Source of the DNA: Herminiimonas sp.
GTDB taxonomy: Bacteria; Pseudomonadota; Gammaproteobacteria; Burkholderiales; Burkholderiaceae_D
NCBI GenBank assembly: GCA_028292665.1
Contig: JAQGLW010000063.1
Location: 1-64,000, forward strand
Direction of reading: 5' to 3'
Length of the DNA stretch: 64,000 nucleotides
Positions 1,052-44,973 of the stretch are shown here, piece by piece (within the stretch, counting starts at the first letter, position 1; each line of letters opens with the position of its first letter). The notes below the pieces were generated by a model that worked only from the letters and a program-made list of their open reading frames with translations, searched no databases and was not told the DNA's origin. Made by a program: the position numbers and the translations under genes.

Positions 1052-2839
1052 ATGGGCAAAAATTCCGACATCCAGCGCGCCCCGATCGCCGGTAAAACCA
1101 GGATGACACCGAGCGAAGCGTTCGTGGAGACGTTGGTTGCCAACGGGGTGACGAATGTTTTCGGCATCGTGGGTTCGGCAATCATGGATGCACTCGACAT
1201 CTTCCCCGCTTCCGGCATCCGTTATATCCCGACTGTGCATGAACAGGGCGCCGGCCACATGGCCGACGGCTATGCGCGCGTCAGCGGCAAGCATGGCGTG
1301 TGCATCGGCCAGAACGGCCCCGGCATCACCAACTTCGTGACCTCGACCGCCGCCGCTTACTGGGCGCATAGTCCGGTGGTGGTGGTCACGCCCGAAAGCG
1401 GCACCATGACCATGGGTCTGGGCGGTTTTCAGGAGACGGATCAGCTGCCGATCTTTTCCAAGATCACCAAATACCAGGGCCATGTCAACAATCCGAAGCG
1501 CATGGCCGAAATCACCGGCCGCTGTTTCGACCGCGCGATGCTCGAGATGGGGCCGACGCAGCTGAATATTCCGCGCGACTATTTCTACGGCGACCACGAG
1601 TTCGAGATTCCGCAGCCGATTCGCATCGAGCGCGGCGCGGGCGGCGAGAAGAGCCTGGATGAAGCGGCCGCGATGCTGGCTTCGGCGAAATTTCCGGTGA
1701 TCGTCTCCGGCGGCGGCGTGGTGATGTCGGCCGGACTCGATGCCTGCGTGGCGCTGGCCGACCTGCTGGGCGCCGCGGTCGTCAACAGCTATCTGCACAA
1801 CGATTCATTCCCGGCCAAGCATCCGTTGTGGTGCGGCCCGCTCGGCTACCAAGGTTCGAAAGCCGGCATGACGCTGATTTCGCAGGCCGATGTCGTGCTT
1901 GCATTGGGCACGCGCCTGGGGCCGTTCGGCACGCTGCCCCAGCATGGCATGGATTACTGGCCGAAGGATGCCAAGATCATCCAGGTCGATGCCGATCCGC
2001 GCATGCTGGGATTGGTGAAAAAGGTTTCGGTCGGTATCTGCGGCGACGCCAAGGCTGCCGCCGAAGCGCTGACGAAGCGCCTGAAGAACATGCAGCTTGC
2101 GGGAAGCGCAAACCGCGAGGAGCGCCTGACCAAAATCAAGAACGAGAAAAAGAAGTGGGAAGACGAACTGAACGAATGGACCCACGAGCGCGATCCGTGG
2201 AGCCTGTCCGTGATGAAGGACAGTCCGTACATGCACCCGCGCCAGATGCTGCGCGAGCTGGAAAAGGCGATGCCGGAAAATGCGATGGTCTCCACCGATA
2301 TCGGCAATATCTGTTCGGTATCCAACAGCTACCTGCGCTTCAATGCGCCGAACAGCATGTTCGCGGCAATGAGTTTCGGTAATTGCGGCTATGCATTCCC
2401 GACCATCATCGGCGCCAAGCTGGCCGCGCCCGATCGCCCCGCGGTGGCCTATGTAGGCGATGGCGCCTGGGGCATGAGCTTCGGCGAAATCCTGACCTGC
2501 GTGCGCGAAAACATCCCGGTTACCGCAGTGGTGTTTCACAACAAGCAGTGGGGCGCCGAGAAGAAGAACCAGGTCGATTTCTACAGCAACCGCTTCCTCG
2601 GCACCAATCTCGAGAACCCGAGCTTTGCCGCGATTGCGCGTTCGATGGGCGCGGAAGGCGTCGTCGTCGACAAGCTGGCGGATGTCGGTCCGGCGCTGCG
2701 CGCGGCTTGCGAAGCGCAGAAGAGCGGAAAAACCACTATCATCGAAGTGCTGGTTACGCAGGAGCTGGGCGATCCATTCCGTCGCGACGCATTGTCGATG
2801 CCGGTGCGCTTCCTTGACAAGAACAAGAAATACGTCTGA
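1052..2839 (+). CDS. xsc: Sulfoacetaldehyde acetyltransferase (Xsc)
   Basis: A 595-residue thiamine-diphosphate enzyme that converts sulfoacetaldehyde plus phosphate to acetyl phosphate and sulfite, the C-S bond-breaking step for taurine, isethionate and sulfoacetate. The N-terminal pyrimidine-binding domain has the conserved VHEQGAGHMADGYAR block with catalytic Glu64. The ThDP/Mg motif GDGAWGMSFGE starts near residue 468 and ends in FHN. Whole-length similarity to Xsc is clear by eye, including the AAYWAHSPVVVVTPE and QLNIPRDYFYG segments. The start is fixed by AAGGAGA at 1040; it adds about 17 residues ahead of the usual MTPSEAFVETL start. Enzymes feeding it (sauS, sauT, GMC dehydrogenase) and removing its products (pta, soeABC) follow downstream. 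Confidence 0.96.
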   Translation: MGKNSDIQRAPIAGKTRMTPSEAFVETLVANGVTNVFGIVGSAIMDALDIFPASGIRYIPTVHEQGAGHMADGYARVSGKHGVCIGQNGPGITNFVTSTAAAYWAHSPVVVVTPESGTMTMGLGGFQETDQLPIFSKITKYQGHVNNPKRMAEITGRCFDRAMLEMGPTQLNIPRDYFYGDHEFEIPQPIRIERGAGGEKSLDEAAAMLASAKFPVIVSGGGVVMSAGLDACVALADLLGAAVVNSYLHNDSFPAKHPLWCGPLGYQGSKAGMTLISQADVVLALGTRLGPFGTLPQHGMDYWPKDAKIIQVDADPRMLGLVKKVSVGICGDAKAAAEALTKRLKNMQLAGSANREERLTKIKNEKKKWEDELNEWTHERDPWSLSVMKDSPYMHPRQMLRELEKAMPENAMVSTDIGNICSVSNSYLRFNAPNSMFAAMSFGNCGYAFPTIIGAKLAAPDRPAVAYVGDGAWGMSFGEILTCVRENIPVTAVVFHNKQWGAEKKNQVDFYSNRFLGTNLENPSFAAIARSMGAEGVVVDKLADVGPALRAACEAQKSGKTTIIEVLVTQELGDPFRRDALSMPVRFLDKNKKYV

Positions 2840-2848
2840 TCCCCGACA

Positions 2849-2886
2849 TGCCCGGGGAACGTGGCTCCGGCCGTTTTCCCCAGGCA
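2849..2886 (+). terminator. Imperfect hairpin after xsc
   Basis: TGCCCGGGGAACG (2849-2861) pairs with CGTTTTCCCCAGGCA (2872-2886), with small mismatches. No uridine run follows, so it may be a weak terminator, a transcript-stability hairpin or an attenuator between xsc and the permease genes. Confidence 0.35.
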
Positions 2887-2984
2887 TGACCGGTTTGCAA
2901 TAGCCGGGCATAATCGCCTGACGCGTATCTGAATATATGAAGGAGCTATACAGACGGTAAAAGCTGCAAGGGGAGAGCGGGCTC

Positions 2985-3062
2985 ATGGCACCGGGTCTGC
3001 CGATCGAAATAATGCATATCACTTACGAAGATAAGGAATGCATATCGCTTACGACAATATAG
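2985..3062 (+). CDS. Possible 25-residue leader ORF upstream of the permease
   Basis: ATG at 2985 is preceded at a good distance by AAGGGGAG (2968-2975), a stronger ribosome binding site than that of the permease itself. The ORF reads MAPGLPIEIMHITYEDKECI and a few more residues, and stops at TAG 3060-3062. The stop runs directly into the GGTGGAG that serves the permease ATG at 3071. The arrangement would couple translation of the two. No homology is recognised, so it may be a leader peptide or a chance ORF. Confidence 0.33.
   Translation: MAPGLPIEIMHITYEDKECISLTTI
3011..3054 (+). repeat. 18-base direct repeat upstream of MFS permease gene
   Basis: AATGCATATCACTTACGA (3011-3028) recurs as AATGCATATCGCTTACGA (3037-3054), differing at one base, with starts 26 bases apart (about 2.5 helical turns). 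It lies inside the leader ORF and just before the permease start. It may be a regulator binding pair or a small duplication. Confidence 0.6.
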
Positions 3063-3070
3063 GTGGAGAC

Positions 3071-4375
3071 ATGAAGAGACTCATGAAGGTAAGGTACTTG
3101 ATCCTGGGGATCATGTGTCTGATGTACTTTATAGCGTATATAGATCGCGTCAATATTTCGATCATTGCTCCCTTGCTGAAAAAAGAAATGGGTCTTACGC
3201 CGACCGAGCTGGGCCTCATTTTTTCGGCTTTTGCATACCCATATGCAGCCATGCAGATTCTGGGCGGCTGGTTCGCGGACAAGTATGGTCCGCGGCTGGT
3301 GCTGGCGATACTCAGCATCATCTGGGCCGTTGCAACGATTCTTTGCGGTTTTTCATGGGGACTGTGGTCGCTGATCATGTTCCGCATTCTGCTGGGAATC
3401 GGCGAAGGCGGCGCATTTCCGGCGGCGACACGCTCTTTCACCTATTGGATGCCCGCCACGGAACGCGGCTTTGCCCAGGGCATCACGCACAGCTTCGCGC
3501 GTCTGGGCGGAGCCGTCACACCGCCTATCGTCCTGTTGATCGTCGCTGCGTACGGATGGCGCGAGTCGTTCATGGTGCTCGGCGTGCTGAGCCTGGTCTG
3601 GACTTTTTTCTATGTCTGGCTGTTTCGCAATACGCCGCTGGAACATAAATGGGTCACGCCTGAAGAGATCAAGGAGATCGGCGTCAATTCAGCCGAAATG
3701 AAGAAGGCAACGGCCGGAAAAACGCCTTGGGTGCAAATGATCAAACGGATGTGGCTGGTGACGTTCGTGGACTTTTGCTACGGATGGTCGTTGTGGGTGT
3801 TCCTGACCTGGCTGCCTTCCTATCTGAAGGACGCGCGCGGTTACGACCTGAAGCAGCTTGCGCTGTTCACATCGCTCCCGTTGCTCGCTGGCGTTGTCGG
3901 CGACACCCTCGGCGGCGTTGTCTCCGACTTTATCTACAGGCGGACCGGCAGCCTCAAGCTGGCGCGGCGCAGCGTGCTCGTTGTCGGACTTGGCGGCGCC
4001 TTGGCCTTCATTCTGCCGGCGATCTACACGCAGACTCCATTGACTGCGGTAATGCTGCTTGCCGCATCGTTTTTCTTCCTGGAACTGACCAACGCCGTAT
4101 TGTGGAGTTTGCCGATGGATATCGCCGGCAAGTATGCAGGGACAGCCGGCGGCATGATGAACACCGGATTCGGAGTCGCGGGAATGATTTCGCCCGCCGT
4201 ATTCGGTTTCATGATTCAGAAAACGGGAAGCTACGAAGTGCCGTTTCTGATTTCGGCCGGACTGCTGGGCGTCGCAGCGCTGTGCTCGCTATTGATTGAT
4301 CCGACCAACAAGGTCGCGGACAGTCCGTCGGATACACCGCTCGATGTACCCGGGCAAGCGGCCTTGTCCAAATAA
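3071..4375 (+). CDS. MFS transporter, anion:cation symporter type (candidate sulfonate uptake)
   Basis: A 434-residue major facilitator with 12 predicted membrane segments. The first segment (MKVRYLILGIMCLMYFIAYI) ends in the DR typical of the anion:cation symporter subfamily, and a GGWFADKYGPR loop follows helix 2. SauU of the sulfoacetate pathway is an MFS protein next to sauS and sauT, so this gene, directly upstream of sauS, is the best candidate for sulfoacetate uptake; the substrate is inferred from position. The start at 3071 was chosen because GGTGGAG precedes it. ATG 3038 in the same frame has its AAGGA abutting the codon and ATG 3083 is also possible. Confidence 0.85.
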   Translation: MKRLMKVRYLILGIMCLMYFIAYIDRVNISIIAPLLKKEMGLTPTELGLIFSAFAYPYAAMQILGGWFADKYGPRLVLAILSIIWAVATILCGFSWGLWSLIMFRILLGIGEGGAFPAATRSFTYWMPATERGFAQGITHSFARLGGAVTPPIVLLIVAAYGWRESFMVLGVLSLVWTFFYVWLFRNTPLEHKWVTPEEIKEIGVNSAEMKKATAGKTPWVQMIKRMWLVTFVDFCYGWSLWVFLTWLPSYLKDARGYDLKQLALFTSLPLLAGVVGDTLGGVVSDFIYRRTGSLKLARRSVLVVGLGGALAFILPAIYTQTPLTAVMLLAASFFFLELTNAVLWSLPMDIAGKYAGTAGGMMNTGFGVAGMISPAVFGFMIQKTGSYEVPFLISAGLLGVAALCSLLIDPTNKVADSPSDTPLDVPGQAALSK

Positions 4376-4381
4376 ACGGGC

Positions 4382-4413
4382 AATGTCTTCCGCCTCTTTG
4401 GGCGGAAGACATT
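4382..4413. other. Perfect 13-bp hairpin between permease and sauS
   Basis: AATGTCTTCCGCC (4382-4394) pairs perfectly with GGCGGAAGACATT (4401-4413) around a six-base loop. There is no following T run, so it is unlikely to be a simple intrinsic terminator. It may set differential mRNA stability between the permease and sauST, or act as an intercistronic processing site. Confidence 0.55.
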
Positions 4414-4459
4414 CCCTGCAAAGACAACGTAATGAATGGTAAAAATGAAGGAATGAAGA

Positions 4460-5887
4460 ATGTCAGTTGAAACGCATGCAAATGTGCCTCCGTCGCCGGC
4501 CGCAGAAATTGTCGCCGAACTAATCAGGAAGGCGCGCGCGGCACAGCGCCGCTATGAAGATTACTCGCAGGAGCAGGTCGACGAAGTCGTCACCGCAGCC
4601 GGCTGGGCCATCATGCATCCCGAGCGTAACCGCACTCTGGCCGAAATGGCGGTGCGCGATACCGGCCTGGGCAACGTGCCCGACAAGATCCAGAAAAACT
4701 ACCGCAAGACTCTCGGCTTGCTGCGCGACCTCAAGGGCGCCAAAACCGTCGGCATCATCGCCGAATACCCGGACCGCGGCCTGGTCGAAATCGCCCGCCC
4801 GGTCGGCGTGGTCGCTGCCATCACGCCCTCTACCAATCCGGCCGCGACACCGGCCAACAAGGTCATCAATGCATTGAAGGGCCGTAACGCCGTCATCATC
4901 GCCCCGTCGCCCAAGGGACTCACCAGCGCCATCGCGCTGGTCGGCTACATCCATGCCGAACTCGATAAAGTCGGCGCACCGCGCGACCTGGTGCAATACC
5001 TGCCCGATCCGATCACCAAGCAAGCCACCCAGGAATTGATGCGCCAGGCCGACTTGGTGGTGGCCACCGGTTCGCAAAGCAATATCCGGCTCGCGTATAC
5101 CAGCGGCACTCCGGCGTTCGGCGTAGGCGCCGGCAATGTCGCTTCGGTCATCGATGCGTCGGCCGATGTCGACCAGGCCGCCCGGAAAATCGCCAGCTCG
5201 AAAACCTTCGACAATGCCACCAGTTGTTCTTCCGAGAACAGCGTGATCATCGTCGATGCGGTGTATCAGCAGGCAGTGGCGGCGCTGACCGCGGCCGGCG
5301 GCGCGATGCTCGATGCGCAAGAGAAGGCTCGCTTGCAAAACACCATGTGGCCCAGAGGCAAGCTCGATTCCGCCGTCACCGCGCAAGCCGCCCCGAAGAT
5401 CGCCGCGCTGGCCGGGCTGACGCGGGAAGCGGTGACCCAGGCGCGCTTCCTGATGGTCGAGGAAGCCGGGGTCGGACCGGATTATCCGTACTCGGGTGAA
5501 AAGCTGTCGCCGGTACTGACGGTCTACCGGGCACGCGACTTCGGTCATGCATGCGAAATCATCGAGCGGATCTACGGCTATCAGGGCGCGGGCCATTCGG
5601 TGGGAATTCATACTGCGGACGACAGGCATGTGCTGCAAATGGGACTGGAGCTGCCGGTATGCCGGGTCATCGTCAACCAGGCGCATTGTTTCGCCACCGG
5701 CGGCAGCTTCGACAACGGTTTGCCGTTTTCGCTGTCGATGGGGTGCGGCACCTGGGGCGGCAACAATTTTTCGGACAACATGAATTACAAGCACTTTCTC
5801 AACATCACCCGCATCGTGCGCCCGATCCCGGAACGGATGCCGGCCGAAGAGGAAATATTCGGCGACTACCTGCGCAAGCACGGCTGA
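4460..5887 (+). CDS. sauS: Acylating aldehyde dehydrogenase, sulfoacetaldehyde dehydrogenase-like (SauS)
   Basis: A 475-residue CoA-acylating aldehyde dehydrogenase. In the sulfoacetate pathway SauS reduces sulfoacetyl-CoA with NAD(P)H to sulfoacetaldehyde plus CoA. The catalytic cysteine is Cys256 in NATSCSSENS, as in acylating enzymes, and the N-terminal cofactor region has GVVAAITPSTNPAATP. Length is right for the short acylating family (related to EutE and PduP). AAGGA upstream of 4460 supports the start. sauT follows after 66 bases, which with nearby xsc favours sulfoacetaldehyde over acetaldehyde or succinate semialdehyde as the product. The exact substrate cannot be read from sequence alone. 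Confidence 0.85.
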   Translation: MSVETHANVPPSPAAEIVAELIRKARAAQRRYEDYSQEQVDEVVTAAGWAIMHPERNRTLAEMAVRDTGLGNVPDKIQKNYRKTLGLLRDLKGAKTVGIIAEYPDRGLVEIARPVGVVAAITPSTNPAATPANKVINALKGRNAVIIAPSPKGLTSAIALVGYIHAELDKVGAPRDLVQYLPDPITKQATQELMRQADLVVATGSQSNIRLAYTSGTPAFGVGAGNVASVIDASADVDQAARKIASSKTFDNATSCSSENSVIIVDAVYQQAVAALTAAGGAMLDAQEKARLQNTMWPRGKLDSAVTAQAAPKIAALAGLTREAVTQARFLMVEEAGVGPDYPYSGEKLSPVLTVYRARDFGHACEIIERIYGYQGAGHSVGIHTADDRHVLQMGLELPVCRVIVNQAHCFATGGSFDNGLPFSLSMGCGTWGGNNFSDNMNYKHFLNITRIVRPIPERMPAEEEIFGDYLRKHG

Positions 5888-38374: not shown

Positions 38375-39094
38375 ATGGAAAATGAATTCAGCCATAAAAC
38401 AAGTTCCGATCTTGAGGAAATGAATGAAAAGCTGCGCAAGGATGTTATTCACTCCCTTGAGCCGCATGGTGCAAGACCGGTATCCGATCTATCCGACATG
38501 ACCGAAGGCGAGAGAGTCAAATGGCTGTTCTGGAATCTGCACGAAAACCTTGACGAGGTCAGGAAGATGGAGCCGACCCTGGTCGGCCATGTAATGAGCA
38601 CGCAATTGACCGTGTGTGACGGACAGTCGATGTGGACGGATAAAAAAGATATGGAGAAAAGACTGGAATTGAATTGCAACTGGCAACTGCTTCTTACTTA
38701 TTCAACCTATCAAAATGAAAGAAGCTATGAAATAGGCGAAGGCTGGGTCAATCTTTGCATTGGAGATCAGCCGCCGAAACATCCGACGCTGCAGGAAAAC
38801 CAGAAGGGTTATCTCGATGCGGATCATTCCTTGTACCCCAATCAGTTATTCCTCAACGGCTGGATCAGCGAAGGCCTATGGCAGGAGATCAAGCCGCAGC
38901 TCTACAGCCCGAGCCCTGCTTCCCGGACCGATATTCTGCTGCTGGATAATTTCATGTTTCCTGTAAAAAAAGGATTTGATTTCGTGACCGGCCCGGCTGG
39001 TGCCATCGGGGTCACCAATGCGGAATTCCGCGCTTTTTCCCATCCCACCGATCGCAGGATGACCAGGCGCGGCGAGCCGCGTCAACGGACCTGA
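38375..39094 (+). CDS. Hypothetical protein, 239 residues
   Basis: A soluble, mixed-charge protein with no signal peptide, no membrane segment and no motif recognised. Notable segments are MTEGERVKWLFWNLHENLDE, the tryptophan- and tyrosine-rich CNWQLLLTYSTYQNERSYEI, and GWISEGLWQEIKPQLYSPSP near the middle. CTGGAG six bases before the ATG supports the start. It converges with the bufferin operon, with six bases between the stops, and is not obviously part of it. A function cannot be assigned. Confidence 0.72.
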   Translation: MENEFSHKTSSDLEEMNEKLRKDVIHSLEPHGARPVSDLSDMTEGERVKWLFWNLHENLDEVRKMEPTLVGHVMSTQLTVCDGQSMWTDKKDMEKRLELNCNWQLLLTYSTYQNERSYEIGEGWVNLCIGDQPPKHPTLQENQKGYLDADHSLYPNQLFLNGWISEGLWQEIKPQLYSPSPASRTDILLLDNFMFPVKKGFDFVTGPAGAIGVTNAEFRAFSHPTDRRMTRRGEPRQRT

Positions 39095-39100
39095 GCAGTT

Positions 39101-40741
39101 CTAATCTGGTTTACGAGCAAGGTCGATCCCGACCAGCACTGCGTGTTGAAGCCATTGCTGCAAATGAAAGCCGAAGTCGAATTCGGGATCGACTTCCAGC
39201 GCCGCATCGAGCGCCGAGCCGAGCGGCTGCCTCTGCTGCAAAGCCGATAACGCGACATAAGCGCCGCGCGTCAGCGGCAGCACGGCAGCCTTCCATCGAG
39301 GACGCACCACCAGGCTGTAATCGGGATGGTCGATCTGTTCGGGAAACGTATTTTCATTACCCTGTTGGTGTGCCTGCCATAGTTCGCCAATCGCCCATTC
39401 GGATGCAATCAGCCGGCATGCCGGATGCAATGAAAATTGCGCATGACCGAGCTGCTCCGGCGTCAGTTGCGCAATGTCGGATGCAGCAAGCGGCACTCGA
39501 TGGGCGACATAATGGGCACGATGGTGCGCCCACTCCAGCATCGCGATATCGGAAAAATAAGGATAGGGCGCGGCATGCGGACAGTGCTGCAGAAAGACGG
39601 AAAAATGTGCGCCGAAATGATTCAGGTCGCCGCTCTCCGACGGATATGCTTTGCCGTATTCGCGCGCCAGGCCGCTGAAAAAATCCGTTCCGGCGAGCGC
39701 CTGCAATACCGGATAGGCGGCCGCCAGCGTCTTCTCCCATCTGCTGCTCAAGTTGCCGCGATACAGGGAAAGACGTTGCTCGGCAAGTTGCGCGTCGCCT
39801 TTGAAAAGCGGGAACGCCCGCGGCGCGCTCTGCGCATCGAATAACGCGTCGGAAAAAATCGACTGGACATTTTCCAGCGAAACGGCATCGACAGACTGCT
39901 GCGCCCGGTTCGCAATCTTGCGCGCCTGTTGCACTTCGCTCAACAGTACTTCGAGCGCGGGAATGTCGGTATCCCATTCGATCAGCGTCGACACGGGACC
40001 GAAGCGCCGCAGCGCATCTTCATACAGAGCCCACACGGGCTCCGCCACACGATCGCCGTGATGATCGATCACCGCATCAGGCGTTGCCAGGTGCCCGGCC
40101 AGATGCATTTCGCCGACGCTGTGCGGCGCGATCGCCCGCAGTGCCGCCAGGGCATCTTCCTGATGATTGCACTGGTTGACGAAGAGATTGTTGATATCGA
40201 GCAGCACGCCGCAACCGGTGCGTGCGGCGACAGAATCCAGAAATTCCGCTTCGCTCATTGCATCGTCGCGATAACGCAAATAGGCCGAACCGTTTTCAAG
40301 CAGGATCGGCCGGCCGAGCAATTCCTGTATCCGGTCGACGCGCCGGCATACAAGCGCCAGCGCTTCCTGCGTCAATGGCAGCGGCAGCAGATCGTTCAAC
40401 CGGCGATCATGCACTGCGTTCCAGCATAGATGCTCGGAGATCAGTGCAGGCTCGATGCGATTGACGGCTTCGCGCAAGCGCTGAAGATGCCGTTCGGAAA
40501 AGCCGCGTGCGGAACCGATTCCCAGTCCGACGCCATGCAGGCTGATCGGATAATCCCGGCGCAAACGCTCCAATACATGTGCGTCCCAACCGCCCGGGTC
40601 GAAATAATTTTCGGTATGGATTTCAAGCCAGTCGACCGCCGGCCGATGTTCGAGAAAATCACGATAGTGGGGAGCCCGCAGTCCGACTCCAAAACCCAGT
40701 CCGGGAAATCCCGATGCGCCGTGATCGCGGATGGATGGCAT
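39101..40741 (-). CDS. bufBC: Fused bufferin maturation protein: DUF692 iron enzyme plus DUF2063 partner (BufB-BufC)
   Basis: A 546-residue protein. Residues about 10-285 are a DUF692 multinuclear non-heme iron oxidase (MNIO) domain, a TIM barrel with candidate metal ligands in [42 protein letters not shown] and EWDTDIP. Residues about 290-546 are a DUF2063 domain, the partner usually encoded by a separate gene (BufC, MbnC-like), which recognises the precursor. In bufferin systems these two modify cysteines of a DUF2282 precursor into copper-binding heterocycles. The precursor gene ends 32 bases upstream. The start at 40741 begins [12 protein letters not shown]; the open frame continues upstream into bufA but without a good start. 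Confidence 0.9.
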
Positions 40742-40773
40742 GGCTCCGCTCGATGGATGGCCGGAAGCGCCGG

Positions 40774-41034
40774 TTATTTTTTGATAAAGGCCGATTTTCC
40801 GCCGATTTTTTCGCAAGTCCCTTTCGCGACATATTTCCATTCGGCCGGATCCATGTCCTTTTTGCTCTGACCGGCGCAGGAATGGGCTCCGATCACGCTG
40901 GAGCAACTATTCTGACCTGCCTTGGCTACGCCAAAACATTTTTGCTTTTCGGATCCGGACGGGTGGGCAGTGCCTGCATCGGCGATGGAAACAGTAGCGA
41001 GGGCGGCAACAAGCAGGGCGTGACGGTTATTCAT
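40774..41034 (-). CDS. bufA1: Bufferin-like precursor peptide, DUF2282 (BufA1)
   Basis: An 86-residue precursor. A signal peptide of about 20 residues ([18 protein letters not shown]) exports it. The mature part carries exactly four cysteines in the family pattern [22 protein letters not shown] and GTCEKIGG. Related DUF2282 peptides are ribosomally made, modified by DUF692 and DUF2063 enzymes, and bind copper in the periplasm. AAGGAAA precedes the ATG at 41034. The DUF692-DUF2063 fusion follows directly, making a minimal two-gene operon without the DoxX-type protein often seen in such loci. Confidence 0.9.
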
Positions 41035-41257
41035 GACAATTTCCTTGAATAGAAGCTGGTTGATGCAAAACTGCATGATGTTGCTGCCAGGAATCTATCT
41101 CAGTAGAAACCGCAAATCAGGCCGCTCCCTGCCGAGATAGGTTCTTAGTGGCTGGAACGGTAAATTGGTTGCTTCAAAGATACTGAAATTTTATTTTCTT
41201 TTTTCTTTGGCTTCGAGCATCGAATAACCCGGCTTGCGTGTTGTCCGCAAGCCGACG

Positions 41258-41292
41258 AAAAAAAACCGGAATGGCCGTATTGGCGATTCCGG
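41258..41292 (-). terminator. Intrinsic terminator of the lysine-rich secreted protein gene
   Basis: On the minus strand CCGGAAT and ATTCCGG (41292-41286 with 41272-41266) form a stem, followed by a run of eight T (41265-41258). A second hairpin, GCTTGCG with CGCAAGC, lies just beyond at about 41232-41252. Confidence 0.7.
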
Positions 41293-41334
41293 TTTGTGCG
41301 CGACTGGGTCGCGCTGTACCGCTGATGCTTGTTA

Positions 41335-41553
41335 TTAAACAGCTGCTTTCTTGGTTTTTTTTGCATGCTTGGCGTGTTTGGCTTTTTTGACATGCTTGGT
41401 TTTCTTGGCCATCTTGATTTTTTTTGCAGGCTTGATCGGCGCAGCGGACTTGGCCGGAGCTTCAGGAGCGGGTGACGGCTGAGCCGGTGTTTGAGCGATT
41501 GCGGCACCCATTGCGAAAGTGGCGGCGACGAGAGCAGCGATTAATTTTTTCAT
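41335..41553 (-). CDS. Secreted lysine/alanine-rich small protein
   Basis: A 72-residue protein. The signal peptide MKKLIAALVAATFAMGAAIA is followed by a Pro/Ala segment (QTPAQPSPAPEAPAKSAAP) and a tail of repeated KKTKH, KKAKH and AKHAK units. It is highly basic with histidines, reminiscent of acid-shock or PsiF-like small periplasmic proteins, but no function is known. AAGGAAA before ATG 41553 and a clean terminator mark it as an independent gene upstream of the bufferin operon on the same strand. Metal or nucleic-acid binding is only a suggestion from composition. Confidence 0.75.
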   Translation of the reverse strand: MKKLIAALVAATFAMGAAIAQTPAQPSPAPEAPAKSAAPIKPAKKIKMAKKTKHVKKAKHAKHAKKTKKAAV

Positions 41554-41761
41554 GGTGGATTTCCTTTTAGGTTGTCCGTAGACAATCTCTACGTACATCC
41601 GTAACGCAGTTCCGTTGCCATCTGTTGACGCCGGGATTGCATTTATTTTTGCAGGAAAGAATTGCATGAAATCATTGAATCCAACGGCATGATAAAAATA
41701 TCAACGCTTGTTGCAACATGTTCAAGCTATTTAATCAGGCCGTTCCATCACTGACATAAAA

Positions 41762-41833: not shown

Positions 41834-42574
41834 TCAACACATATGCTGGCCGCCATTGATGGCGATATTGGCGCCGGTCAAAAATGCGGCTTCATCCGAC
41901 GACAGATAAGCGACCAGGCCCGCAACTTCTTCCGGCTTGCCCAAACGTGCCATCGGAATCTGCGGGATGATTTTGCTGTCCAGCACTTCCTGCGGAATCG
42001 ACATCACCATTTTCGTACCGATGTAGCCCGGCGAAATCGTGTTGACCGTTACACCCTTGCGCGCCACTTCCAGCGCGAGCGCTTTGGTGAAACCGTGCAT
42101 GCCGGCCTTGGCTGCGGAATAATTGGTCTGGCCGAATGCGCCTTTCTGGCCGTTGACCGATGAGATATTGATGATGCGGCCCCAGCCGCGCTCGGTCATG
42201 CCGTCGCAGACCGGTTTGGTCATGTTGAAAACGGAGTCCAGGTTGGTCCTTATCACCGCATCCCAATTGGTCTTGTCCATTTTCTTGAAGGTCATGTCGC
42301 GCGTGATGCCGGCATTGTTGACCAGCACGTCGATCGGGCCGACTTCCTTCTCGATGTCGGCCACGCACTGTTGCGCCGAATCGTAATCCGACACATCGCA
42401 CGGAAAGGCGCGGAATTTATATCCCTGCTCTTCCATCGCGGCCAGCCATTCCTTTGCTTTGGTATTGCCCGGTGAATAGGTGGTGACCACTTGATAATTC
42501 AGTGCGGCGAGCTTGATGCACACCGCTTCGCCCAATCCGCCCATACCGCCGGTGACTAATGCAACTCGTGTCAT
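41834..42574 (-). CDS. phaB: Acetoacetyl-CoA reductase (PhaB)
   Basis: A 246-residue short-chain dehydrogenase that reduces acetoacetyl-CoA to (R)-3-hydroxybutyryl-CoA with NADPH for PHB synthesis. The cofactor motif is TGGMGGLGEA (residues 8-17), the structural motif NNAG at about 88, and the catalytic Ser, Tyr and Lys are in NISSVNGQ and TNYSAAKAG. The FDCDVSD-like turn (AFPCDVSDYDSA) and the QTNYSAAKAGMHGF block are those of PhaB rather than FabG. AGGAGGG precedes ATG 42574. phaA lies 49 bases upstream on the same strand, so the two form an operon. Confidence 0.95.
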   Translation of the reverse strand: MTRVALVTGGMGGLGEAVCIKLAALNYQVVTTYSPGNTKAKEWLAAMEEQGYKFRAFPCDVSDYDSAQQCVADIEKEVGPIDVLVNNAGITRDMTFKKMDKTNWDAVIRTNLDSVFNMTKPVCDGMTERGWGRIINISSVNGQKGAFGQTNYSAAKAGMHGFTKALALEVARKGVTVNTISPGYIGTKMVMSIPQEVLDSKIIPQIPMARLGKPEEVAGLVAYLSSDEAAFLTGANIAINGGQHMC

Positions 42575-42623
42575 GGTGTCCCTCCTGTTATTTGAACTCG
42601 ATGAAAAGGATGCGACGCATGGA

Positions 42624-43799
42624 TCAGCGTTCCACCGCCAGCGCGACTCCCATGCCGCCGCCGATGCACAAACTGGCCAGTCCTCGCTTGGCATCGCGCC
42701 GGACCATTTCGTGCAGCAGCGTGACCAGAATGCGGCAACCCGATGCGCCGATCGGGTGGCCCAGCGCAATGGCGCCGCCGTTAACGTTGATCTTGCTGGT
42801 GTCCCAGCCCATTTCCCTGTTGACGGCGATCGCCTGCGCAGCGAATGCTTCGTTGATTTCCATCAGGTCGAGATCCTGATGGGTCCAGCCTGCTTTTTTC
42901 AGGCACAATTGCGTCGCCGGGACCGGTCCCATGCCCATGATGCTCGGGTCGACACCGGCCGACGAATAAGCCTTGATTCTGGCCAGCGGCGTCAGACCCA
43001 GTTCCTTGGCCATTTTGCCCGACATCATCACCACCGCAGCCGCACCGTCATTGATGCCGGACGCATTGCCGGCAGTGACCGTGCCATCCTTGGAAAAAGC
43101 GGGGCGCAAGGCCGACAGGGATTCGACCGTGGTGCCGCTCTTGATATATTCGTCGCTGTCGAAGACGATCGTGCCTTTTTTCTGCGGAATTTCCAGCGGC
43201 AGGATTTCATCCTTGAACTTGCCGGCTTTCTGTGCGGCTTCAGCCTTGTTTTGCGATGCAGCTGCAAACTCATCCTGCTCCTGGCGCGAAATGCCGAATT
43301 TCTTGGCGACGTTTTCGGCGGTGACGCCCATGTGATACTGATTGTAAACATCCCACAGGCCATCGACGATCATCGTATCGATCAATTTGGCATCGCCCAT
43401 GCGGAATCCTTCGCGCGAATTATTCAGCACATGGGGGGACGCGCTCATGTTTTCCTGGCCGCCGGCGATGATGATATCGGCATCGCCGCATTTGATCGCC
43501 TGGGCTGCCAGATGCGTGGCTTTCAAACCGCTGCCGCACACCTTGCCGACGGTGAAGGCCGGCACCATGTCGGGCAAGCCGGCCTTGATGATCGCCTGGC
43601 GCGCAGGATTCTGGCCGACGCCGGCGGTCAGCACCTGGCCCAGAATCGCTTCATTGATCATGTCCGGCCGGATGCCGGTTTTGGCGAGCAGGCCCTTGAT
43701 CACATGCGCGCCCAGATCCGCGGCGGGAATCTTTGTCAGCGATCCGCCAAACTTGCCTACCGCTGTTCTCAGTGCTGCAACAATTACGACATCGTCCAT
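42624..43799 (-). CDS. phaA: Acetyl-CoA acetyltransferase (PhaA)
   Basis: A 391-residue thiolase that condenses two acetyl-CoA to acetoacetyl-CoA. The active-site cysteine is in [14 protein letters not shown] near residue 89, the catalytic His in [19 protein letters not shown] near 348, and the second Cys in [12 protein letters not shown] near 379. GGAGAG precedes the ATG at 43799. With phaB it makes the PHB monomer; acetyl-CoA from sulfonate breakdown could feed it. No phaC synthase gene lies in this window. Confidence 0.95.
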
Positions 43800-44362: not shown

Positions 44363-44415
44363 GCGCCATTTCCGTTGCCTTCATGGCTCATCGATTGCCC
44401 CTTATGGAGAAGTAC

Positions 44416-44973
44416 ATGTTCCCGATTCAAGATCAGATTTCAATCGTCACCAGAACCAGTCTGGAAAATCAGCTTGCAGCGTTTGCCGCACTGACTAACA
44501 AAACTTTTGAAGGTATGGAAAAGCTGTTCGACTTGAACATCAATGTCGTCAGGGCATCGCTGGAAGAATCGTCCGTCATCATGAATCAATTGATGAGCGC
44601 CAAGGATCCTCAGGAATTTTTTTCGCTCGTCGCCGCGCAGGCGCGGCCGACCGCCGAAAAGGCACTTTCATATAGCCGTCATCTGACTAACATTGCGTCC
44701 GGCACGCAGGCAGAATTCAGCAAAGCGGCGGAAGCGCAATTTGAAGAGACCAGCCGCAAAGTAACCAGGCTGGTGGAAGACGCGGCCAAGAATGCGCCGG
44801 CCGGTTCCGAAAACGTGGTGGCGCTCGTGAAGTCCGCCATCGACAATGCCAGCGCCGGCTACGAGCAGTTGAGCAAGACTACCAAACAGGCTGCCGAAGC
44901 AATCGAGGCCAACCTGAATGCTGCGGTAACCCAGCTTGCGCAAGCGACTGAAAAAACACCCGCTGCAGGCTGA
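44416..44973 (+). CDS. phaP: Phasin (PHB granule-associated protein)
   Basis: A 185-residue, helix-rich amphipathic protein of the phasin_2 family. The N terminus reads MFPIQDQISIVTRTSLENQL, followed by TFEGMEKLFDLNINVVRASLEES, typical of proteobacterial phasins, and an Ala-rich C-terminal coil (EAIEANLNAAVTQLAQATEK). It coats PHB granules and controls their size. GGAGAAG at 44406 sets the start. It is divergent from phaAB and has its own promoter, so it can be induced separately. Confidence 0.93.
   Translation: MFPIQDQISIVTRTSLENQLAAFAALTNKTFEGMEKLFDLNINVVRASLEESSVIMNQLMSAKDPQEFFSLVAAQARPTAEKALSYSRHLTNIASGTQAEFSKAAEAQFEETSRKVTRLVEDAAKNAPAGSENVVALVKSAIDNASAGYEQLSKTTKQAAEAIEANLNAAVTQLAQATEKTPAAG

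Follow-up and report, generated by a model that had tools for sequence, protein, structure and literature searches.

Does a bufferin operon whose iron enzyme and partner protein are encoded as one polypeptide represent a genuine and conserved arrangement, and what could such a joined protein do for the cell? The question is raised by positions 39101-41034 of the window, i.e. the 64,000-nucleotide stretch of a Herminiimonas sp. contig (JAQGLW010000063.1) analysed here as a whole. A first-pass annotation, made from the letters alone, had placed a minimal bufferin operon there, and both its coordinates and its description of the genes proved right. The operon comprises bufA followed by bufBC, both on the minus strand. 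The first gene (40774..41034, -) encodes an 86-aa precursor of the Buf1/DUF2282 type (PF10048 DUF2282, E 9.9e-23, above the cut-off) that carries the announced four-cysteine bufferin pattern, with Cys33, Cys44, Cys53 and Cys74 spaced 10-8-20. Its N-terminus consists of a charged start and then a hydrophobic stretch, and reads, as judged by eye only, as a Sec signal peptide. The bufA stop codon is separated by 32 nt from the ATG of bufBC (39101..40741, -), an uninterrupted frame of 546 aa in which the MNIO enzyme BufB and its partner BufC are fused. Searches of the source genome (4.33 Mb in 199 contigs) returned a single DUF2282 match, which is bufA, as well as a single MNIO match and a single DUF2063 match, both located in bufBC. 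Judged by the BufBC protein, the closest named relatives of this organism are Oxalobacteraceae.

The fused chain begins with the BufB domain, a TIM-barrel MNIO (residues 17-277; 39911..40693, -) matched by PF05114 at E 1.7e-102, above the Pfam cut-off, and the protein scored 366 bits for a cut-off of 310 against the NCBIfam model NF050167 MNIO_BufB. The junction between the two Pfam domains (residues 278-291; 39869..39910, -) appears in the structural models as the end of a long helix (263-286), a brief break and the start of the next helix (289-301). It leads to the DUF2063 domain of BufC (residues 292-384; 39590..39868, -), matched by PF09836 at E 3.5e-18 and 66.1 bits for a cut-off of 27.2, and finally to the C-terminal part of BufC (residues 434-541; 39119..39442, -), a putative RRE-like part for which two AlphaFold2 models predict strands and then three helices, as an RRE should show. 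The HvfC model NF050145 matched residues 317-505 at 37.5 bits, far under its cut-off of 142. Frame 39101-40741 holds no stop codon between the MNIO and DUF2063 domains, and the proposed 546-residue fusion of BufB and BufC is thereby borne out, both domains exceeding their cut-offs within one frame. PF05114 and PF09836 were likewise both present in each of the 33 fused proteins scanned. This PF05114-PF09836 architecture is probably listed in Pfam.

Eleven positions, namely H69, H104, E149, N150, D182, N184, N185, H213, D226, H228 and E255, were invariant in an alignment of 60 fused proteins, made up of the window's protein and 59 of the 73 other listed ones. These residues sit in motifs common to the MNIO structure 3bww and are candidate iron-site residues, the metal roles being suggested by motif position. 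The LDxNN and DxHG motifs are where we would expect the counterparts of N175, D242 and H244, the essential residues of HvfB in the available excerpts of PMC13419390, as judged by motif and not by alignment with HvfB. Structural comparison of the BufB half with VIA-align gave TglH (8hi7_B, Z 29.8), 3bww (Z 28.1) and MbnB (7dz9_A, Z 27.8) as closest matches, the best non-MNIO row, from which unrelated barrels extend downwards, reaching Z 19.1; all these rows span residues 13-285 only, i.e. not the C-terminal half. Searched by sequence against solved structures, the BufC half returned nothing of note, and the profile of the whole chain returned MNIO chains only. AlphaFold2 models including the window's protein reached a mean pLDDT of 92.6 with a pTM of 0.65 when built from 33 fused sequences, and 93.1 with a pTM of 0.59 when built from 60, which indicates that each half is well predicted but that their mutual placement is not.

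The fusion is real and common among relatives, being neither an error nor unique to the window. The sample of the window's family comprised 294 genomes; 183 of them matched the fused protein at E 1e-30, and at least 102 of these carry a fused gene. A single alignment reached both halves in at least 85 genomes, the table having been read by hand. Thirteen of these 85 alignments count one stop; four of the corresponding genes (G189, G091, G218 and G090) were fetched and are single frames over both domains, so that the stop lies at the end, and the nine others (G236, G220, G135, G272, G145, G278, G047, G167 and G249) were counted unfetched. Fifteen further genomes, with an alignment over the first half only, proved fused when fetched, with longer junctions or divergent second halves, and two more (G217 and G246) carry fusions of a Buf2-like type. 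Two genomes were left out of the 102, one with the gene at a contig end (G008) and one with a broken frame in an assembly 48% complete (G237). At the order level (200 genomes, 95 with a DUF2063 match), open frames of at least 430 residues occurred in 11 rows, namely 8 fused loci, 2 split ones and 1 devoid of BufB. Across the phylum the fusion is rare: among 299 genomes, 97 were DUF2063-positive and only 2 of the 97 are fused, the window's genome and G017, both belonging to the window's family; this count rests on nine long-frame rows read, of which just two were fused. A few cases may have escaped these prevalence counts where a contig end truncates the gene. The earlier statement that most loci encode the two proteins separately is thus valid for the phylum sample and fails in the family sample (at least 102 of 183 matching genomes fused), and rarity among relatives does not hold, the fusion being widespread in the family and recurrent in the order.

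A long frame alone is no test of fusion, since several long-frame loci turned out to be split when read by domain. This was the case for 2 of 55 long-frame candidates (L053 and L058) and for nine more loci (L132, L137 and L140-L146), and another one, L139 (G397), is without BufB. Loci were therefore counted as fused only if both domains share one frame.

Seventy-four distinct fused loci, the window's included, were read as one frame, a number which, together with the E-values, rules out chance resemblance. The first-pass annotation had proposed counting how many such fusions adjoin DUF2282 genes, and the association is strong: immediately upstream in 68 of the 74 loci is a DUF2282-type precursor gene, the end of which lies 10-116 nt from the BufB domain. 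The cysteine spacing of these 68 precursors is 10-8-20 in 49 cases and 10-6-20 in 19. In L225, a DUF2282-type gene lies about 400 nt away, and in five fused loci the precursor is of a six-cysteine, Buf2-like type, to judge by its cysteine pattern.

The phylogenetic distribution of the fusion was reconstructed with a FastTree phylogeny of 172 BufB domains (64 fused and 108 split), omitting L003, L004 and L005 as duplicates, L020 as broken, and L139, L157 and L192 as devoid of BufB. Fifty-six of the 64 fused rows form one clade (support 98) whose sister group consists of 8 split Undibacterium-type rows (support 98), the two being joined at 93; that so many fused rows group in one clade beside split ones implies that the fusion was kept through much divergence. 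The other eight fused rows lie elsewhere in the tree, as L051, L136, L138 and the group L056/L057/L131/L134/L135, the last being a separate MNIO-DUF2063 fusion group with the six-cysteine Buf2-like precursor. The fused or split label changes five times on this tree, and at least four times when only starred branches are counted. A second tree, inferred from both domains of 61 hand-chosen loci (37 fused), displays seven changes, at least five of them forced, gains and losses taken together. An AU test on this tree rejected the grouping of all 37 fused rows as one clade (p-AU 6e-58) but not a clade of the 31 main fused rows from which the split L211 and L218 are excluded (p 0.28), both groups having been named after seeing a tree. 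The fusion seems to have arisen several times: these phylogenies make more than one origin well supported, but not their exact number, for which the long branch of L136 and the shifting of L051 between trees are caveats.

Two split loci occupy the main fused clade or its base in the second tree, which indicates that the fusion is not indispensable. L218 (G006) is unresolved near the base of the clade, and L211 (G061) falls inside a starred fused group. In the latter (2649-4728, -), a close relative with a BufB 74% identical, bufB and bufC are separate and overlapping genes. Read by eye, the start of its bufC is a GTG that follows AAGAGGAG, and the gene overlaps the bufB end; this arrangement is only suggestive of an apparent re-splitting, possibly a fission.

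The window's operon is pared down relative to those of its nearest relatives. As first described, it is without an adjacent doxX: downstream of bufBC lies a convergent gene (38375-39094, +), and all three PF07681 matches in the genome fall on other contigs. Among 40 fused genomes examined, doxX (PF07681) directly follows the fused gene on the same strand in 12. In the window's subclade (11 FastTree rows, ten of them tested, G214 being left out), it does so in 8 of 10, being absent in the window and G020. The region upstream of bufA (41035..41334, -) is in addition devoid of a GTAA-N16-20-CGAC, ECF-sigma-like element that occurs in the 311 nt upstream of bufA at 26 of 68 fused and 26 of 54 split loci (52/122), its stricter form, GTAAG[GT] with CGAC[TA], being found at 20 fused and 14 split loci. 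The same pattern appears 97 times in 1.81 Mb elsewhere in these loci, which predicts about 2 occurrences in 122 upstream regions; the observed frequency is about 25 times this background, an excess somewhat flattered because the pattern had been drawn beforehand from 18 of the counted upstream regions. The element, mostly GTAAGG or GTAAGT (e.g. in L063, L055, L059 and L094), resembles an ECF sigma promoter, and this resemblance agrees with reports of sigma-factor genes within Buf1 clusters (PMC12452194, available excerpts). It is present in all ten other members of the subclade, as defined by FastTree, and absent in the window, where the stricter form was absent throughout with up to 2 mismatches allowed; the strict element showed no excess in the source genome either, with 2 matches against 10 for a reversed control. 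The nearest relatives mostly have the ECF-like element and the adjacent doxX, and the window's operon has neither, which leaves some doubt over its expression under copper. A sigma-70 promoter scan of 38900-41700 returned none, and terminator-like sites in the same interval numbered 7 for 3.5 expected.

Other features of the locus were recorded along the way. The convergent gene at 38375-39094 (+) encodes a 239-residue protein with no Pfam match at E 0.1; nine other distinct loci have homologues of it (54-79% identity) close to the operon. On the opposite side, the operon is adjoined by genes at 41834-43799 (-) and 44383-44973 (+), which we take to be polyhydroxybutyrate genes encoding an acetoacetyl-CoA reductase, a thiolase and a phasin. 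The phaB-like neighbour upstream of bufA is kept in nine distinct relatives (86-94% identity). Between phaB and bufA sits a 72-residue, Lys-rich frame with a signal-peptide-like start (41335-41553, -), weakly similar to the acid-shock protein Asr (E 0.0074, below the cut-off) and found in the window alone among the loci searched (blastp, E 1e-6). An Rfam search gave just two sub-threshold matches, both to eukaryotic families, and a structured RNA reading was dropped. A plasmid origin was also rejected: 68 plasmid records match distantly, 49 of them from Burkholderia. The 20 of these 68 that were listed are all B. glumae records in which the match falls on two annotated features, and no match among them extends over 80% of the query.

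Beyond the observed genes, domains, iron-site motifs, single frame, spread, recurrence and linkage to a precursor, the best explanation, which we consider quite probable, is a Buf1 bufferin operon with fused maturase subunits, whose chemistry, export, copper binding and benefit from the tether are read across from relatives. By this analogy, BufBC would most likely be a tethered 1:1 maturase making thiooxazoles on the two central cysteines of BufA, itself probably a copper-binding peptide. BufA would be made with a Sec signal peptide doubling as a leader; in the cytoplasm, the BufC half, with its DUF2063 and RRE-like parts, would recognise BufA and present it to the BufB half, whose multi-iron site would oxidise Cys44 and Cys53 to 5-thiooxazoles. 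Cys33 and Cys74 would form a disulphide later, and the product would be exported and then bind copper in the periplasm. The fusion would hold enzyme and partner 1:1 and side by side, and the tether may also keep the enzyme switched on, since in a relative the partner HvfC is needed for the active mixed-valent Fe(II)/Fe(III) diiron state (PMC13419390, available excerpts).

Published work on related systems, as far as the excerpts available to us extend, gives these steps their outline. In Buf1 maturation, the central cysteines become thiooxazoles and a disulphide links the outermost two (PMC12452194); the four cysteines named as targets in the first-pass annotation are in this respect probably wrong, two of them being the modified ones. 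In the Hvf system, the interaction between HvfB and HvfC is weak, a precursor that still carries its signal peptide is favoured, and an artificial, linker-free HvfB-HvfC fusion yields markedly more product than the co-expressed pair (PMC13419390). The natural fusion fits this HvfABC picture, and the artificial one offers an experimental parallel that supports the idea of a single-protein maturase.

With the same chemistry, the fusion might nonetheless be selectively neutral, overlapping genes having been joined by chance indels and the joined form tolerated, a reading which departs from the best explanation only on the tether benefit and which we regard as somewhat improbable, though far from negligible. 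Joining the genes would indeed be easy: split bufB and bufC overlap out of frame in 12 of the 12 junctions printed (of 109 split loci), by 4-17 nt (five of 4 nt, e.g. ATGA; five of 8 nt, e.g. ATGgcTGA; one of 11 and one of 17), with start codons assigned by eye, so that a small indel is enough to fuse them. The geometry of the joined form also appears loosely constrained, 10-92 residues separating the HMM envelopes of the two domains in the 74 fused loci (10 in the window), and the split L211 and L218 branch within the main fused clade or at its base. Neutrality accords less well with a main clade that is otherwise fused throughout (31 fused versus 2 split loci in the second tree; 56 of 56 fused in FastTree, which lacked L211 and L218), with the recurrence of the fusion, and with the gain of activity of the artificial HvfBC fusion (PMC13419390, available excerpts).

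Alternatively, the chains could pair as a domain-swapped homodimer, the BufC half of one docking on the BufB half of the other, the junction being short. This we find unlikely: the domain envelopes are only about 10 residues apart in the window and in seven other loci, and the pTM is low though each half is well predicted, but longer junctions are the rule, with a median of 24 residues over the 74 loci. Finally, an error of sequencing or assembly, in which the stop separating two genes was lost, can practically be set aside, for although the source assembly is in 199 contigs, 73 other distinct loci show the same architecture and are homologous across the junction, and such fused homologues refute a sequencing artefact.

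Read as a Buf1 operon with a tethered maturase, the system is of a known kind, a bufferin, of which the natural fusion is a real, conserved and recurrent variant. As described in the available excerpts of PMC12452194, Buf1 clusters of the bufABC type, including the 'gig' operons, share with it the four-cysteine DUF2282 precursor, the MNIO, the partner with DUF2063 and an RRE (putative in the window), and the A-B-C order. The window's B and C, however, form one chain, a separate partner gene being usual and not a strict requirement, and its operon is without an adjacent doxX (common, not universal) or ECF-like element. The engineered HvfBC (PMC13419390, a preprint of July 2026, available excerpts) shares the order of enzyme then DUF2063/RRE-like partner in one chain, and may be likened to the window's system in its thiooxazole chemistry and signal-peptide precursor, but it is artificial, linker-free and derived from the Haemophilus oxazolin system, whereas the window's is natural and of the Buf1 type. 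MovX (PMC13419390 and PMC12452194, excerpts) is another natural single-chain MNIO without need of a separate partner; it adds only its own C-terminal RRE/winged-helix domain and acts with another precursor family, whereas the window's enzyme adds a whole DUF2063 and RRE-like partner. In the ChrH family (PMC12636315, excerpts), the C-terminal domain is fused, yet is a separate polypeptide in Cyanobacteriota, so that here too a single subfamily contains both joined and separate forms of an MNIO and its accessory domain, the accessory domain and the chemistry being different.

The fusions described in the available excerpts of PMC12452194 are precursor fusions and an MNIO-nitroreductase fusion, MNIO-DUF2063 not being among them. 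No mention of a natural MNIO-DUF2063 fusion was found in the excerpts covered from this paper or from PMC13419390, PMC13097082, PMC12538549, PMC12710340, PMC10214503, PMC12141560, PMC12636315 and PMC12257519, a mention in the first bufferin paper being possible, and in the same excerpts no biochemical result on a natural fusion was found.

Because enzyme and partner bind weakly in the Hvf system, the active complex was hard to study, and one group therefore built the artificial fusion (PMC13419390, available excerpts). Natural fusions represent ready-made stoichiometric maturases and a natural experiment on the role of the partner, with their split relatives (Undibacterium and G061) as matched controls, and they are relevant to the question of how modification precedes export for a precursor that has a signal peptide. 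We tentatively propose, with a confidence slightly short of an even chance, that Burkholderiales have repeatedly evolved a pre-assembled MNIO maturase, for both Buf1 and Buf2-like precursors, in which the tether keeps the iron cluster active and modification outruns Sec export. If this is true, the fused form would be the natural counterpart of the engineered HvfBC, and the most suitable protein with which to solve structures of enzyme, partner and substrate together.
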